From Chloroflexota bacterium (lineage in GTDB: Bacteria; Chloroflexota; Dormibacteria; Dormibacterales; Dormibacteraceae), in contig VBEG01000025.1 of the NCBI GenBank assembly GCA_005882115.1, positions 1-64,000 on the forward strand: 64,000 bases of DNA. The letters are read 5' to 3'. How positions within the stretch are numbered: position 1 is the first letter of the stretch; every line of letters begins with the position of its first letter. Of the stretch, positions 3,273 through 59,941 are shown piece after piece. Both the position numbers and the translations under genes were made by a program. The notes below the pieces were generated by a model that had not been told where the DNA came from, searched no databases, and saw only the letters and a list, made by a program, of their open reading frames with translations.

Positions 3273-4661
3273 GTGGACGAGGCTCGCACCGAGTATTCAC
3301 GCGTCAATCTCTCGAGCGATCCCATCTACCGATACCTTCGCATCACGAAGGGCGGGCCCGGCGGGGTTGCCGGCCGGGCTGCCGAGCAGGACCTCGTCGA
3401 CGCGGCGTGGCTGCAGCGCCTGCGCCGGATCCACCAGCTCCAGAGTGCGTGGTGGGTCTTCGCGACTGCTGAGCATTCACGGTTTCAGCACGCGCTGGGC
3501 GCGATGCATCTCGCCGGCGAGTGGGCGCGTCATCTCTACCCGTCGCTGAAGGTGTCCTGCGGGGACGTGCCCTCGCCACAGCTCGTCGAAGAGACAATGC
3601 GAATCGCCGGTCTGCTGCATGATGTCGGACACGGACCGTTCGGCCACTTCTTCGACGAGAACTATCTCGACACGTGGGGCATCGACCACGAGGTCGTCGG
3701 AAGAGCTCTGATCACGGGGCCACTCGCAGGCACCATCGGCGAGCTGGGCGCATCGCCATCCGCCGATTTCGCATCGGGGGAACGGATCGATCCGCGCTGG
3801 GTCGCCTACCTCATCTCCTCGACCGAGCTGCCAGGCTTTGAGCCGCCGCCCTGGCTGGTTGTGCTGCGTCCCGCGCTGGTCGGCCCCTTCTCGGCCGACA
3901 ACATGGACTACGTCCCTCGCGATTCCTATATATGTGGTGTGTCGGCCGGTCCGGTCGACGTGCAGCGGATCATCCACTACTCGTTCATCTCGGAGCGCGG
4001 CCTGACCCTGCACGCGCACGGGGCCGAGGCGCTTTACATGTTCCTCAACTCGCGCCTGTACCTCTACCACCAGGTCTACTTTCACCGGACGGTGCGGCGG
4101 ATCGACCTCCAGCTCCGCGAGGTGTTCCGTCCGACCATCCAGCTCCTGCTCGGCGGCAACCCGCTGGAGCATCTCGACCGCTTCCTGGCGCTGACCGAAT
4201 GGTCGCTCCTATCCGACGTCGATCGCTGGGCGCGAGATGCGCAAGACGCGCAACGCCGGGAGCTCGGCGACGCATGGGCCGCGGTCGTGGCGCGAAAGCT
4301 CAAGTGGAAGCTGATCTACCAGGGCCACACCGACGCCCGAGACATCCCCAGCGGCGCCTTGAGCGTCACTCGCGACCAGTTCGCGAGCCGGCTGCGCGAG
4401 CGACTGCCGACGAATCTGAGGGACATCGCCTTCGAGGTCGACGTCGCGGCCCAGGAGTCGCGCGCCTTCAACCCGATGACGGAAACCGCCGACATCCTTT
4501 TCTACGAACCGCTCGAAGACACCTACCGGCAGAGCCGCGTTCTCGATCTGTTCAAACGGCTGCCGGTGCGGATGGCGCTGTTCCGGATCTTCGCCCACGA
4601 CGAGTCGCATCGGCACGACCTGATCAAGGCCGCGAACGAAGTCCTGGGTCTAGCCACCTAG
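3273..4661 (+). CDS. HD-superfamily phosphohydrolase (dGTPase/SAMHD1-like)
   Basis: 462 residues from the GTG at 3273. The longer ORF-track start would cover the divergent DUF309 gene. The HD-domain metal ligands are clear: H in AEHSRFQHALG (about residues 67-77) and HD in GLLHDVGHGPFGH (about 112-124). The latter is the signature shared with dNTP triphosphohydrolases and SAMHD1-like enzymes. A later D in SADNMDYVPRD probably completes the site. It may hydrolyse dNTPs or a related nucleotide, but the substrate is inferred. An AATAAT box 6 bases before the GTG suggests a leaderless transcript. Confidence 0.8.
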   Translation: MDEARTEYSRVNLSSDPIYRYLRITKGGPGGVAGRAAEQDLVDAAWLQRLRRIHQLQSAWWVFATAEHSRFQHALGAMHLAGEWARHLYPSLKVSCGDVPSPQLVEETMRIAGLLHDVGHGPFGHFFDENYLDTWGIDHEVVGRALITGPLAGTIGELGASPSADFASGERIDPRWVAYLISSTELPGFEPPPWLVVLRPALVGPFSADNMDYVPRDSYICGVSAGPVDVQRIIHYSFISERGLTLHAHGAEALYMFLNSRLYLYHQVYFHRTVRRIDLQLREVFRPTIQLLLGGNPLEHLDRFLALTEWSLLSDVDRWARDAQDAQRRELGDAWAAVVARKLKWKLIYQGHTDARDIPSGALSVTRDQFASRLRERLPTNLRDIAFEVDVAAQESRAFNPMTETADILFYEPLEDTYRQSRVLDLFKRLPVRMALFRIFAHDESHRHDLIKAANEVLGLAT

Positions 4662-4677
4662 GCCCGGGGGTCGAAGC

Positions 4678-4926
4678 CTAAAAGTCGTCGTCTCCGCCGC
4701 CGAAGTCGTCGCCGCCACCAAGGTCGTCATCGCCACCGCCGAAGTCGTCGCCGCCTCCAAAATCCTCGTCGGCCTCGCCCGAGCTGACAGTGGCGAAGGT
4801 CGACACAAGCCGGCGCAGCGCTTGCTTGCCGCAGTGAGGGCAGCCTGGGTCGGGCGAAGAAAAACGTGCCAGCAGGACCGACGACCGCTTGCCGCACTCG
4901 TCGCACCGGTACTCGTAAATCGGCAC
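4678..4926 (-). CDS. FmdB-family zinc ribbon protein with Gly-Asp repeat tail
   Basis: 82 residues from the GTG at 4926 (VPIYEYRC matches the family start MPIYEYxC). Two Cys pairs, CDEC and CPHC, form the FmdB zinc ribbon in residues 8-32. The last 28 residues are tandem copies of an FGGGDD-type unit, which makes the tail strongly acidic and flexible. The same periodicity is visible in the DNA at 4681-4770. The ORF-track version of 245 residues is an artefact of upstream read-through. FmdB proteins are putative regulators; the role of the tail is unknown. Confidence 0.85.
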   Translation of the reverse strand: MPIYEYRCDECGKRSSVLLARFSSPDPGCPHCGKQALRRLVSTFATVSSGEADEDFGGGDDFGGGDDDLGGGDDFGGGDDDF

Positions 4927-15769: not shown

Positions 15770-15791
15770 CGATCCAAGGATAAGGCTCGGG

Positions 15792-15797
15792 TATAAT
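15792..15797 (+). promoter_or_regulatory. -10 box (TATAAT) for the guaB3-guaA cluster
   Basis: A consensus TATAAT lies 68 bases before the ATG at 15865. No good -35 is visible at 16-18 bp. The spacer is shared with the divergent DUF4332-like gene. Confidence 0.5.
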
Positions 15798-15864
15798 TCG
15801 GCGAACCCGCCCCATTCAATGGAGTAAACACACCCTGAATCAGACCCGGATGGAGACCCGAGAC

Positions 15865-17049
15865 ATGATTTCCCGGGAGGAGTCTGGCCTCGAGATCGGG
15901 ATCGGACGGCGGGCGCGTCGAGCCTACGGTTTTGATGAGATCGCGCTCGTCCCAGGTGGTGTGACACTCAACCCGGACGAGGTCGACATCTCTTTTGCGA
16001 TGGGCGAGAGCTTTGCGCTGGCGCTGCCCTTCTGGGGCTCCGCGATGGACGGCGTGGTCGACGTCGCGTTCGCCATCGCGATGGGCAAGCTGGGTGGCGT
16101 TGCGGTGCTGAACCTCGATGGCGTGCACACGCGCTACGAAGACTCGGCGCCGATCATCAAGAAGATCGCCGAAGCCGATAAAGCCACCGTGAACGCGGTC
16201 CTGAAGGACGCGTATCGCGAGCCGGTCAAGCCGAAGCTGATCAGCGAGCGCATCAAGGCGATCAAGGCCGCAGGCGTCCCATGCGCCGTTTCGACTGTCC
16301 CTGCCCGAGCTGAGGAGCGCGCCGAGGTCGTGCAGAAGGCCGGTTCCGATATGTACGTCGTCCAGGGCACGGTCCTCACCGCGCGCCACTCCTCTCGCTC
16401 CTACCACCAGCTTTCTTTCGAGGACCTCGTTCGCGCGTGTGAGATTCCTGTCGTGGTCGGGAACTGCGTGCAGTACGAGACAGCGCTCGAGCTGATGGAG
16501 ACCGGGATCGCGGGCATCCTGGTCGGGGTCGGACCTGGCGCGGCGTGCACCACGCGGGGCGTGCTCGGTGTCGGAGTGCCACAGATGACCGCGACCGCGG
16601 ACGTCGCGGCCGCTCGCGATGAGCACATGCGCCGCGGCGGCATGCGTGTCGCGGTGATCACCGATGGCGGGATGCGCATCGGTGCGGACGTGTGCAAGGC
16701 GTTTGCCGCCGGCGCCGACGCGGTGATGATCGGTACCCCCCTTGCGGGCGCCGAGGAGTCGGCGTCGCAAGGATTCAACTGGGGGATGGCGACGCCAGAC
16801 CCCAACCTGCCGCGCGGGACGCGGATCCACGTAGGGACCAAAGCGACCCTGCGCGAGATCCTCCTTGGTCCGGCGCGCGTGGACGACGGGACGCAGAACT
16901 TCGCCGGTGCGCTGCGCTCGGCGCTCGGCGTCTGCGGCGCGCACGACATCGCTGAGTTCCAGCACACCGAGCTGGTGATCGCGCCGTCCATCGTCTCGGA
17001 GGGCAAGGTCTTCCAGCAGGCCCAACACGTGGGGATGGGCAAGAGCTGA
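15865..17049 (+). CDS. guaB3: GuaB3-family IMP dehydrogenase
   Basis: 394 residues from the ATG at 15865. GGAG lies 9 bases upstream of it; the ATG at 15850 is an alternative. This is the short IMPDH-related family without CBS domains ([20 protein letters not shown] at the start). The IMPDH loop [20 protein letters not shown] carries the catalytic Cys, and [29 protein letters not shown] is the phosphate-binding segment. It should oxidise IMP to XMP with NAD. Position directly before guaA supports a real role in GMP synthesis. No CBS-containing guaB is in the window. Confidence 0.85.
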
Positions 17050-22284: not shown

Positions 22285-23735
<1,451 letters not shown>

Positions 23736-23812
23736 CCAGGCTCGGACATCCGAAGAGCGGCCGGCCATTTGCGGTCACCGGCACGACGACGCGAGGCACG
23801 TCAGGAAGCTTC

Positions 23813-24295
23813 GTGTTGCGGGACGACGTGATCTCATTCCCCGACGGCGCGGGGGCGACGTACACGGTCGTCGAGAATCCGGATTCGGCGTTCGTCGTTC
23901 CATATTTCGACAACGGCGATACCGTGCTCGTCCGCCAGTGGCGTCATGCGTGGGACATCTCGTCATGGGAGGTGCCCGCCGGGACGTTCGATGAGGGCGA
24001 GGACCCGGCGGAATGCGCGCGCCGGGAGCTCGCCGAGGAGACCGGTCTGGTCGCCACTCGCTACAGCTCGCTAGGTGTCGTACGCGGCGCGGCGTTTCTT
24101 ACCGGTCGGGCGCATCTTTTCCTGGCGGAGGGACTCACCGAATCGGCTCGTAATCCGGAGACCTACGAGCAGGACATGGAGGTGTTGCGGCTTCCCTTCA
24201 CCCACGCGCTGCAAGCCGCGCTCGAAGGACAGATCGTCCACTCGGGATCGGTGACCGCGCTATGCCGCGCGGCCCACGCACTGGAGCTCCCCTAA
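23813..24295 (+). CDS. NUDIX hydrolase (ADP-ribose pyrophosphatase-like)
   Basis: 160 residues from a GTG. The Nudix box is seen in GTFDEGEDPAECARRELAEETGL (GX5EX7REUXEEXGU pattern). The VVPYFDNGDTVLVRQWRHAW and SSWEVPAGTFDEGE segments are typical of ADP-sugar pyrophosphatases. It probably hydrolyses a nucleoside diphosphate linked to another moiety. It ends convergent to the anti-sigma gene with a 4-base overlap. Confidence 0.85.
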   Translation: MLRDDVISFPDGAGATYTVVENPDSAFVVPYFDNGDTVLVRQWRHAWDISSWEVPAGTFDEGEDPAECARRELAEETGLVATRYSSLGVVRGAAFLTGRAHLFLAEGLTESARNPETYEQDMEVLRLPFTHALQAALEGQIVHSGSVTALCRAAHALELP

Positions 24296-34611: not shown

Positions 34612-35233
34612 GCCTGACGTTTTCGCGCAGCTGATCGAAGGCATGACATCGGCCTGTGGCGAGGCGGGATGCGCCTTGCTCGGCGGCGAGACCGCGGAGA
34701 TGCCCGGCGTCTACGCGCTGGGCGACTACGACCTGGCGGGCTTCATCGTCGGCATGGTCGAGGCCGGTTCACGTCGCGAGCCGATCAAGGCTGGCGACCT
34801 ACTCGTCGGGCTGCCCTCGACCGGCTTGCATACGAATGGTTACTCGCTCGCGCGCAAGGTGTTCGCCAACGTGCCTCTGAGCGGTGTGCTCGCGGACGAG
34901 CTGATGGCGCCGCATGTTTCTTATCTGGGCGACCTGGCCGGCATCCGCTGGAAGGGCGCCGCGCACATCACAGGTGGTGGGATCCTGGGCAACCTACCGC
35001 GCTGCCTGCCCGACGGAATCGCCGCGCGCCTGGACCGTGCGGCGTGGACGGTCCCGCCGATCTTCGACCTCATCCGGGAACGGGGTCGCGTCGCCGACGA
35101 TGAGATGTACGCGACGTTCAACATGGGGCTGGGCATGATCCTGGTCGTCGCCCGCGAGGCTGTTCCACCGGGAGCGTTGGTAGTCGGCCAGGTCGTCCGC
35201 CAGACCGGCCCCGAGCGGGTGATGATCAGCTGA
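34295..35233 (+). CDS. purM: Phosphoribosylformylglycinamidine cyclo-ligase (AIR synthetase)
   Basis: 312 residues from a TTG (MSYAAAGVDIEAYERVLERV). The core motifs are present: HLAASTDGVGTKIKVA, GSDIVNHCVNDI, LGGETAEMPGVY and HITGGGILGNLPR. It is about 30 residues shorter than usual; the missing part is near the C-terminus after FNMGLGMILVV. It closes the imidazole ring of FGAM to AIR. The reading frame upstream of the TTG is open into purF, so a PurF-PurM fusion by frameshift cannot be excluded. Confidence 0.93.
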   Translation: MSYAAAGVDIEAYERVLERVKPLIAATQGKEVAVGVGPFAGLYALPGGGHLAASTDGVGTKIKVAIATGNHRVIGSDIVNHCVNDIATARARPLFFLDYFATGKLEPDVFAQLIEGMTSACGEAGCALLGGETAEMPGVYALGDYDLAGFIVGMVEAGSRREPIKAGDLLVGLPSTGLHTNGYSLARKVFANVPLSGVLADELMAPHVSYLGDLAGIRWKGAAHITGGGILGNLPRCLPDGIAARLDRAAWTVPPIFDLIRERGRVADDEMYATFNMGLGMILVVAREAVPPGALVVGQVVRQTGPERVMIS

Positions 35234-35802
35234 AGATCGGAGTCTGCGTCTCGGGTCAGGGAACCAACCTACGCAATCTCGTCGAGCACGGGATCAACGT
35301 CGTCGCCGTCGCCACGAACCGACCGTCGTGCGGAGGCGCCGCCTACGCGCGTGAGCAACGCATTCCACTGGGTGAGCTGTCGCAGAAGGCCTTTGAGTCA
35401 GCGGAGGCTCGGGACATGGCGATGCGCGATTTCTTCCGTGACCATCGCGTCGAGATGGTGGTCGACGCGGGCTACGACCGCATCCACACGAGGCCTTTTC
35501 TCGACGCCTTTGCAAACCGGCTCATCAACGTGCACCCGTCGCTGCTGCCGCAGTTCGCCGGAGGCATGGACGCCATCGAGCGCGCCTTGGCGAGCGGCGC
35601 GCGGGAAACTGGGGCGACCGTGCACCTGGTGACCGCAGACGTTGACGCCGGGCCCATCCTGCTTCAGCAGGCGGTCCCGATCCGTGTCGGCGACACGGTG
35701 CAGACTCTGCGCGAGAGGGTGCGCGAAGCGGAACACCGAATCCTGCCGCAGGCTGTGCGGCTCATGGAGGCACGGCTTGCCAACCGCTCTTCTGTCCGTT
35801 AG
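35230..35802 (+). CDS. purN: Phosphoribosylglycinamide formyltransferase, apparent CTG start
   Basis: 190 residues if read from the CTG at 35230, which overlaps the purM stop as CTGA. The conserved N-terminus KIGVCVSGQGTNLRNLVEHG lies directly after that CTG. No ATG, GTG or TTG occurs in frame before the ATG at 35416, which would remove a third of the enzyme. Catalytic segments INVHPSLLPQFAGG and TADVDAGPILLQQ are present. It formylates GAR with 10-formyl-THF. The purH Shine-Dalgarno lies inside its last codons. Confidence 0.88.
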   Translation: MKIGVCVSGQGTNLRNLVEHGINVVAVATNRPSCGGAAYAREQRIPLGELSQKAFESAEARDMAMRDFFRDHRVEMVVDAGYDRIHTRPFLDAFANRLINVHPSLLPQFAGGMDAIERALASGARETGATVHLVTADVDAGPILLQQAVPIRVGDTVQTLRERVREAEHRILPQAVRLMEARLANRSSVR

Positions 35803-56776: not shown

Positions 56777-57238
56777 GTGGCCAAGCTGCACGAGGTGGTC
56801 GACATCGATGCGCCCGTCGAGCGCGTCTGGGCGGTGGTCGCAGAGGACGTGAGGAACGTGCCGAGATGGTCGTCCAACCTTGACAAGGTGGAGAAGCTCG
56901 ACGATGGACCGCCGGGAAAGGGGACGCGTTACCGCTACCACCTCGACCTGGGCGGCCACAAGGAAAAGCTCGAGGTGGAGCAGGACGTTTACAACAAGCC
57001 CAAGAAGTGTTCGGGCAGGTTCATCAAGGGCCCGCTCAACGGGACCTGGTCCTACACATACACGCAGCGCAAAGACGGATCGACTCGATTGGTCTATGAC
57101 ATGAACTACCAGCTCGGTGGCCTTCTTCGCTTCGCGACGGGCGTTCTCGGACCCCAATATGCAGCGGGGATTCGCAAGAACATGGAGGCGCTCAAGCGGT
57201 ATATCGAATCCGGGAAAGGGCCGGCCGTTAAGAAGTAA
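56777..57238 (+). CDS. SRPBCC (START/Bet v1-like) family protein
   Basis: 153 residues from a GTG. KLHEVVDIDAPVERVWAVVAEDVRNVPRWSSNLDKVEKLDDGP is the typical first strand and helices of SRPBCC proteins (polyketide cyclase/dehydrase-like). A cavity for a hydrophobic ligand is expected; no catalytic motif is evident. Converges on ridA with an 11-base overlap. Confidence 0.8.
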   Translation: MAKLHEVVDIDAPVERVWAVVAEDVRNVPRWSSNLDKVEKLDDGPPGKGTRYRYHLDLGGHKEKLEVEQDVYNKPKKCSGRFIKGPLNGTWSYTYTQRKDGSTRLVYDMNYQLGGLLRFATGVLGPQYAAGIRKNMEALKRYIESGKGPAVKK

Positions 57239-57611
57239 CCGCCTCGGCCTCGATCTCCACCTTCCAGCGCTCGTCGAGCAGCCCTTTCACCACAACCATG
57301 GTCGCCGCCGGCCGTGCCGCGCCCATCGCTTCGCCGTGTGCGCGACCGACCGCATCGCCGAACGATGCGTCGGTGACGAACATCCGCGTTCGCACTACGT
57401 GTTCGACCGAGGCTCCCACTTCGGTCAACGCGATGCCGATGATCTCGAAACACCTCTTGGCCTGGACATAGGGATCAGGGTCGACAGATCCGTCCGGCCA
57501 GACCGGCGCCGTGCCTGAGACCAGGACCCGATCCCCGACCCGCAGGGCGCGGCAGAAGCCGATCGTCTTCTCAAACGGCGAACCTGAGCTGACCCGTTGC
57601 CGGTCGTTCAG
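57228..57611 (-). CDS. RidA family protein, apparent CTG start
   Basis: 127 residues when read from the CTG at 57611, which overlaps the stop of the upstream gene as CTGA. The conserved N-terminus RQRVSSGSPFEKTIGFCRAL follows two codons later. No ATG, GTG or TTG is in frame before TTGACCGAA, at about residue 62. The core has VLVSGTAPVWPDG and ARPAATMVVVKGLLDERWKVEIEAEAV, the Rid family end. It probably deaminates reactive imines/enamines, perhaps those from the PLP lyases. The ORF track shows only its last 66 residues. Confidence 0.82.
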   Translation of the reverse strand: MNDRQRVSSGSPFEKTIGFCRALRVGDRVLVSGTAPVWPDGSVDPDPYVQAKRCFEIIGIALTEVGASVEHVVRTRMFVTDASFGDAVGRAHGEAMGAARPAATMVVVKGLLDERWKVEIEAEAVTS

Positions 57612-58066
57612 GGTCTGCGAAACGGGAGCAGCTCCAGCTGCTCGAAGCGATCCTGGACCGCGGTGCGGAGCTCGCTGACGAGCGTCTTCAGGCGTTCCTG
57701 CGAACTGCTGTCGGTGATGTTCACGACGCGGATTCGTCGCAGCGTCGTCTGCAGCGCGTATAGCCCCGCAGGTTCGTTGCCTGCGATGCGCGCGGCTCCG
57801 TTGCGGATGTCCCGCGCCACGTCTTCATGGCCGTGTGCGCGCATCCAGTTGGCAAGTCGGGCCGCGGCGACGAGGACGCGCTGGGTCTTGGGGTTGAGGG
57901 TAGGCGCCACCACTTCGCGCGGCCGTCGCGGCTCGAACAGAGAAGGGATTCCGCTGAAACGAGGCACGGATTTGAGCCGCTGGACGAGCGAACGGGGCCC
58001 GATCATGACGAGTATCCCGGCGCCAACCAGGAGGACGACGACAAACCCTACGATCGCGTCCAGCAT
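57608..58066 (-). CDS. Membrane-anchored protein of unknown function
   Basis: 152 residues. One N-terminal transmembrane helix (about 5-25), then a mostly helical cytoplasmic domain (AARLANWMRAHGHEDVARDIRNGAARI). A TAACCT box 8 bases before the ATG supports the start. Coupled to ridA through CTGA. No family recognised. Confidence 0.6.
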   Translation of the reverse strand: MLDAIVGFVVVLLVGAGILVMIGPRSLVQRLKSVPRFSGIPSLFEPRRPREVVAPTLNPKTQRVLVAAARLANWMRAHGHEDVARDIRNGAARIAGNEPAGLYALQTTLRRIRVVNITDSSSQERLKTLVSELRTAVQDRFEQLELLPFRRP

Positions 58067-59019: not shown

Positions 59020-59178
59020 TCAACAACCGGGCTCGCCGTAGTTGCCGCAGCAGCCGCGTCCACCGGCCTTCCTGCGGACATTGCTGACCATCAGGCGCAT
59101 GCGTTCGAAGGGCGAATAGGGTCCCGCCGCGAGATTGCGAACGAAGCTAGAGGGCGAAGGACGCAGCCGCCGGCTCAT
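59020..59178 (-). CDS. Small protein ending in a CCGNYGEPGC motif
   Basis: 52 residues from the ATG at 59178, which lies at the edge of the tandem repeat block. SPFERMRLMVSNVRRKAGG precedes the Cys-rich end RGCCGNYGEPGC. Three Cys in the last 11 residues suggest metal or redox binding. After the stop TGA a 13-codon ORF (MTKEEARAAGLIK) begins at once at 59019. Coding character is plausible, but the 5' end may have been altered by the repeat. Confidence 0.4.
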   Translation of the reverse strand: MSRRLRPSPSSFVRNLAAGPYSPFERMRLMVSNVRRKAGGRGCCGNYGEPGC

Positions 59179-59548
59179 TCGTAGGTCAATTGTTGCCTTT
59201 CGATTCAAGACGAGCATTGTCGGCAGGCCGGATTTACTCCGGCCGCCACCGGGTGGCGTCCACCAAACGCCTGCCAAACGCGGCCGGCCATCGCAGGGGA
59301 TGGCCCGCGGAAGGGGACAGAGTCCTCTTCCGCGATTTCATTCGTAGGTCAATTGTTGCCTTTCGATTCAAGACGAGCATTGTCGGCAGGCCGGATTTAC
59401 TCCGGCCGCCACCCGTCAAGACGAGCATTGTCGGCAGGCCGGATCTACTCCGGCCGCCACCGGGTGGCGTCCACCAAACGCCTGCCAATCGCGGCCGGCC
59501 ATCACAGGGGATGGCCCGCGGAAGGGGACGGAGTGATCTTCCGCGATT
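59175..59548. repeat. Tandem repeat block with three REP-like hairpins
   Basis: Unit A (59175-59337, 163 bp) and unit B (59338-59548, 211 bp) both begin TCATTCGTA and run through the same sequence. B is 48 bp longer because of an internal second copy of the TCAAGACGAGCATTGTCGG-hairpin segment. Each segment has GGCCGGATTTACTCCGGCC (59226-59244, 59389-59407; TCTAC loop at 59437-59455). No ORF with coding character runs through. The 662-bp gap 58887-59548 otherwise holds only the small CCGNYGEPGC gene. Confidence 0.85.
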
Positions 59549-59941
59549 TCATTCGTAATAGTTGTCTTTGTACTCGATCCAGCCTGGATTGGGACAGCCG
59601 CTGGAGGTGTGGGCGTGCGTGCAGTGCACGCCATAGCGCGGACCTGGGTCGATGTAGAGCTCGCCGTGGATCACGAGCCCATCACCTTTGTGAACCGGTA
59701 CGTACTGGGCGAGGCTCGTGTTGTGGTCGACCTCGAGCATCTCTCCTGTGGCCGCGCGGACCTCGAAGCGCTCGTGGTCACCGGATTGCACCGGATCGCT
59801 CAATGCCGTCGCGTCGAAAGTGACTTCGGCTCCACCGCGGTTGTTCTGGATCTCGCGATGTAGGCCCTGGTCGTCGGCAGTCTCCCGGCCGCCGCACGCG
59901 GCCAGCACGAGCGCCGCGAAAAGGCACGCCGCGAGCCTCAC
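59549..59941 (-). CDS. DUF3465-like lipoprotein
   Basis: 130 residues from a GTG that overlaps the hisA stop (GTGA). A lipoprotein signal peptide, MRLAACLFAALVLAAC, ends in the lipobox Cys16. The mature part has EMLEVDHNTSLAQYVPVHKGD, ELYIDPGP and HCTHAHTSSGCPNPGWIEYK. These resemble DUF3465, a small secreted OB-like domain of unknown role; the family name is from memory. The 3' end borders the tandem repeat. Confidence 0.65.
   Translation of the reverse strand: MRLAACLFAALVLAACGGRETADDQGLHREIQNNRGGAEVTFDATALSDPVQSGDHERFEVRAATGEMLEVDHNTSLAQYVPVHKGDGLVIHGELYIDPGPRYGVHCTHAHTSSGCPNPGWIEYKDNYYE

Follow-up and report, generated by a model that had tools for sequence, protein, structure and literature searches.

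Does the ridA gene of a Chloroflexota bacterium (GCA_005882115.1) begin at a CTG codon overlapping the stop codon of the gene before it, and, if so, what would lead a ribosome to accept such a start? The gene lies on contig VBEG01000025.1, of which we analysed positions 1 to 64,000 of the forward strand (64,000 nucleotides, hereafter the window). This window sits in a 145-kb contig of a draft genome of 3.36 Mb in 147 contigs. The elements of the locus are as follows.

57228 to 57611, minus strand: ridA (RidA, PF01042), 127 codons and a stop codon when started at CTG 57611
57608 to 57611, minus strand: CTGA, in which the ridA CTG (57611-57609) overlaps the upstream stop TGA (57610-57608)
57608 to 58066, minus strand: upstream 152-aa ORF, the conserved neighbour of ridA, ending in FRRP and the stop

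The sequence reads as in the original prediction, which placed the ridA start at this CTG and noted about 60 codons devoid of any usual start. The 152-aa ORF, for which a profile search gave no Pfam match, terminates with AGA CCC TGA, and the ridA frame opens with CTG AAC GAC CGG CAA CGG GTC AGC. No ATG, GTG or TTG occurs in this frame between an in-frame TGA at codon -73 and a TTG at 57428, 61 codons past the CTG. The product is recognizable as RidA (PF01042, 68.6 bits for a gathering score of 27.3, 6.5e-19, residues 18-125), and its N-terminus under the CTG start is predicted to be (M)NDRQRVSSGSPFE.

We assembled 16 ridA orthologs from the family, all sharing the upstream neighbour. Fifteen have the CTG, with no usual start between -25 and +14, the exception (L098) presenting an ATG further upstream. 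The CTG forms a CTGA overlap with the neighbour's TGA in 13 of these 15; in L089 and L090 it stands 4 nt past the stop, and the neighbour still ends in FRRP, followed by TAA or TGA. The nearest in-frame stops upstream of the family CTGs lie at 12, 22 and 26 codons. Distant orthologs carry ATG or GTG in the same column or within one or two codons of it.

The prediction had also mentioned a second, unrelated gene with the same arrangement. This gene is purN, which follows purM:

35230 to 35802, plus strand: purN (Formyl_trans_N, PF00551), read from CTG at 35230
35230 to 35233, plus strand: CTGA, overlap between purM (ends 35233) and purN

Of 30 family orthologs of purN, 23 start at CTGA and the rest at ATG or TTG. 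Some of the family orthologs have an in-frame stop as near as 7 codons upstream, which leaves little choice of start besides the CTG. The N-terminal peptide of PurN would then be MKIGVCVSGQGTN. Across the wider phylum, a pattern search in 400 genomes retrieved purN with CTGA in only 10; the two candidates outside the family (G051, G195) were rejected, a GTG being present a few codons upstream.

A scan for further CTGA starts, as the prediction had proposed, was productive. This wider survey covered about 2 Mb from nine family genomes, in which gene pairs without a usual start were collected using a simple codon-usage gene caller. It returned cofD, a glycerate kinase gene, a phosphoglycerate-mutase-like gene, tsaD and aroE, these names being assigned from N-terminal sequence. 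The glycerate kinase, tsaD and aroE are examples of cases seen in a single genome. For cofD, one and the same start column holds CTGA in two genomes (G000 and G005), ATGA in two others (G016 and G030) and ATG in a fifth (G009). Two kinds of candidates were discarded: guaA, where a TTG is present nearer the domain, and CTGATG pairs, which count as TGATG. Actinobacterial control contigs (G042, G044; GC 0.71-0.72) gave few CTGA calls, which resemble artefacts of the gene caller on the antisense strand, so that no clean background rate can be drawn from them.

One CTG candidate of the window has no stop overlap:

15835 to 17049, plus strand: guaB (IMPDH-like), CTG at 15835-15837

In this genome an alternative ATG lies at 15850, five codons after the CTG; in G004 and G005, no ATG, GTG or TTG is found ahead of the domain. 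A TATAAT box (GGTATAATT) precedes guaB (window 15780-15840), inside an open frame, and is kept in several species. A conserved CTG with a TATAAT box and no overlapping stop means that some relaxation of start choice may be general. PdxT also lacks a usual start near its domain (G000, contig C47, about 66565-66600, L159; orthologs in G016 and G009). A CTG is conserved some 17 nt ahead of the upstream stop, but it is ambiguous, as the end of the upstream protein is equally conserved.

Is the overlap register specific to TGA stops? In the nine family genomes, the same -1 register is also seen with TAG and TAA, where the overlapping codon becomes ATA, GTA or CTA. We followed two such genes across the family, one in the window and one further along the contig:

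23732 to 24295, plus strand: NUDIX hydrolase gene (PF00293), read from ATA at 23732
23732 to 23735, plus strand: ATAG, in which the NUDIX ATA overlaps the TAG of a biotin-carboxylase-like ORF (ends 23735)
Contig position 90612, outside the window: HAD hydrolase

Counted from the aligned residue, the NUDIX frame has an in-frame stop 103 codons upstream, and between that stop and a point 20 codons downstream it is free of ATG, GTG and TTG. Over 28 family genomes, its start is ATAG in 17, ATAA in two, CTGA in eight and GTGA in one; the start codon thus switches with the upstream stop, being NTA beside TAG or TAA and NTG beside TGA. After the ATA start, the protein is predicted to begin (M)ARLGHP. 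The HAD gene presents ATAG in 22, ATAA in two and GTAG in three, that is in 27 of 30 family orthologs. Among these 27, 17 offer no usual start ahead of the catalytic motif DLDGT, and in the other 10 a TTG, GTG or ATG at codons +2 to +5 could serve. In one ortholog (L351), an in-frame TAA is the codon directly before the ATA. FadD has ATAG in G016 and GTAG in G036; in G005 (contig C160, L196-L214, minus strand) and G004 (contig C160), the FadD pair is in another register, with no usual start near the upstream stop. Two frames on the plus strand of G016 contig C18, gyrA-like (about 200774) and gcvT-like (about 192188), open right after an in-frame TAG and have no usual start within 12 codons.

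Register counts are not convincing as proof of NTA starts: TAG/TAA pairs without a usual start make up 19 of 107 in the -1 register and 14 of 110 and 10 of 99 in the other two. The -1 register is not clearly enriched, and the case for NTA starts therefore rests on conservation. The original prediction suggested that CTG starts are used in this lineage when coupled to a stop. Stop-coupled CTGs do recur, in ridA, purN, cofD and the single-genome cases, and their conservation suggests that they are indeed used. As a rule, however, the proposal was too narrow. In two species the ridA CTG lies 4 nt beyond the stop, the CTG of guaB apparently has no stop close by, and the rule is not specific to CTGA because TAG or TAA stops in the same register give ATA or GTA (NUDIX, HAD hydrolase, FadD).

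In overlaps of 4 nt, the start codon shares its first base with the upstream gene, where this base is the third position of the last codon and may be compared with its surroundings. In the ridA pair, this third position has undergone no change, versus two to six in neighbouring codons. In the HAD pair, the upstream last codon shows at least 11 changes at positions 1 and 2 and only three at position 3, versus about equal numbers in neighbouring codons. Where this codon is an arginine CGN, it is CGA in 15 of 15 cases, whereas CGA represents 9.5% of CGN codons here. A shared base that is kept while the remainder of the codon changes is suggestive of selection on the start base. The trend extends to purN, but its signal is weaker because the control codons, purN's own last codons, likewise vary little at position 3. 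We found no enrichment in Shine-Dalgarno sequences at these starts: a GGAG-like motif lies ahead of 17% of those that are CTGA-only and 16% of those that are NTAR-only, compared to 41% of ATGA starts and 14% of random sites.

The initiation machinery looks ordinary. The best match to the E. coli tRNA-fMet has a CAT anticodon and a normal GGG/CCC stem, which rules out an initiator tRNA with an altered anticodon. Loss of IF3 is ruled out as well: infC scores above cut-off in 19 of 21 genomes, with both Pfam domains present, and the IF3 sequence is ordinary and aligns well with solved structures. We therefore found no change in this machinery. The infC gene (L296-L306, copies of the genus) has itself no ATG, GTG or TTG ahead of its domain, with ATA and ATC as conserved candidates; infC also lacks a usual start in other bacteria, as expected for IF3 autoregulation.

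We consider it quite probable that CTG 57611 is the true ridA start, reached by an incompletely released ribosome that restarts one base back with tRNA-fMet. In favour of this start are its conservation with no canonical alternative, the ATG or GTG at the matching site of distant orthologs, the purN parallel and the extension to ATA and GTA. The most likely mechanism is termination-reinitiation with a relaxed choice of start codon. A ribosome terminating the 152-aa ORF at its TGA would not be fully released, and would begin anew in the -1 register, a single base upstream, using the ordinary initiator tRNA-fMet, making fMet the presumed first residue. Restart would require translation of the upstream gene. 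Codon choice may be relaxed as the ribosome is already positioned, so that CTG, ATA or GTA would be accepted, and such codons (CTG, ATA) might hold expression low. Counting against this reading, in E. coli CUG gives 0.86% of AUG activity (PMC11497404), and some pairs without a usual start are in other registers (FadD in G004 and G005, PdxT).

What else could produce this pattern? A sequencing or assembly error at 57611 would be conceivable in a draft of 147 contigs, but the presence of this CTG in 15 genomes of the family, from different species, reduces it to a negligible chance, and the original prediction was right to consider an artefact less likely. A usual codon inside the gene could start a truncated protein, the CTG or ATA being a bystander fixed by upstream coding. 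The 10 HAD orthologs with a usual codon at +2 to +5 are compatible with such an internal start; with such a start, however, 61 codons would be lost from the beginning of ridA and about 63 from that of purN, the other 17 HAD orthologs offer no such codon ahead of the catalytic motif, and the wobble base is retained while the upstream amino acid changes. We regard this as extremely improbable. Programmed -1 frameshifting at the upstream stop would instead make ridA, purN, NUDIX and HAD fusions with no separate start. The CTGA, ATAG and GTAG overlaps are all in the -1 register, with the upstream frame open, as frameshifting would have it. Yet in orthologs these are separate genes with an ATG or GTG in that column, ridA in L089 and L090 is in a different register, 4 nt past the stop, and no conserved slippery heptamer is visible by eye, the HAD upstream frames ending in codons as different as AAA, CGA, AGA, CAA and AAG. 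Frameshifting is thus very unlikely.

Alternatively, non-canonical starts may be general in this family and independent of stops, overlaps being merely the place where they are easiest to spot. The ridA CTG at +4 in two species, the guaB CTG of G004 and G005, with its upstream TATAAT box and no stop overlap, and those pairs in other registers that lack a usual start all point this way. Against it, ortholog-aligned start columns are nearly all ATG (275), GTG (192) or TTG (90), seven of the well-supported CTGs are found in 4-nt overlaps, and the anticodon arm of the initiator tRNA and IF3 appear ordinary. A general relaxation therefore seems unlikely, though less so than the explanations above. 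Returning to stop-coupled restart, a broader form of it can be put forward only tentatively: in this family it may be chiefly where the stop codon lies, and not the start codon, that fixes the restart site, UGA giving NUG and UAG or UAA giving NUA. AUA and GUA would then be ordinary wild-type starts in stop-coupled genes, and the start would co-evolve with the neighbour's stop.

The literature presents -4 nt overlaps as ATGA or GTGA, their start codons all ending in G (PMC10666635; PMC6728339), and a review gives them as NTGA (PMC12548453). Our junctions share the geometry of these termination-reinitiation systems, with co-directed operon genes and a start one base ahead of the same-strand upstream stop, as found for ridA, purN and NUDIX in the window. 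They differ in that CTGA is conserved here, along with NTAG and NTAA overlaps bearing ATA or GTA. The downstream gene starts at CTG or ATA with no canonical alternative (ATG, GTG or TTG), and we therefore place these junctions as a variant of -4 termination-reinitiation rather than as canonical members.

Non-canonical starts are known in single genes, such as infC (ATT, ATC or AUA). Others are Streptomyces sigR, with a conserved GTC start and a strong Shine-Dalgarno (PMC5472188), and S. aureus cvfC1 (AUU) and ccpN (AUA), with strong or extended Shine-Dalgarno sequences (PMC13009471). As in our family, a non-canonical start is kept across species in these cases, presumably with low expression and sensitivity to IF3. 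Here, in contrast, several unrelated metabolic genes are tied to upstream stops, and their starts are not enriched in the Shine-Dalgarno sequences that accompany sigR and the S. aureus genes. Viral termination-reinitiation (influenza B BM2, caliciviruses) offers another parallel: beside a stop, codons other than AUG can serve for restart, probably AUA at -1 among them (PMC3035654, PMC5972666). Those systems involve eukaryotic ribosomes tethered by a TURBS element, and laboratory mutants, whereas the present starts are natural and conserved. In E. coli, the recJ gene, apparently coupled and devoid of a Shine-Dalgarno, has a GUA start mutant that IF3 opposes (cited in PMC2268962); there, however, the GUA arose as a laboratory mutation that IF3 mutants rescue, and the arrangement is not a wild-type one as here.

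CUG accounts for 0.024% of bacterial starts (PMC11497404), and our search found no literature on start codons in Dormibacterota. In this family of uncultured soil bacteria, several genes appear to keep CTG, and even ATA or GTA, across many species where the preceding gene stops. If housekeeping genes such as purN do so, start stringency would be relaxed in natural bacterial re-initiation, a notion so far argued mostly from viruses and mutants, and the native junctions of these genes could be put to direct test. Gene callers of the standard kind recognise ATG, GTG and TTG and would truncate or miss such genes.

Two further stretches of the window are repetitive. Apparent direct repeats occupy 59130-59560, with ORF translations repeating KTSIVGRPDLLRPPPGGVHQTPA, and the open frame ahead of a threonine-dehydratase-like gene (4650-4830) repeats VVVSAAEVVAATKVVIATAEVVAAS and lacks a usual start over about 46 codons.
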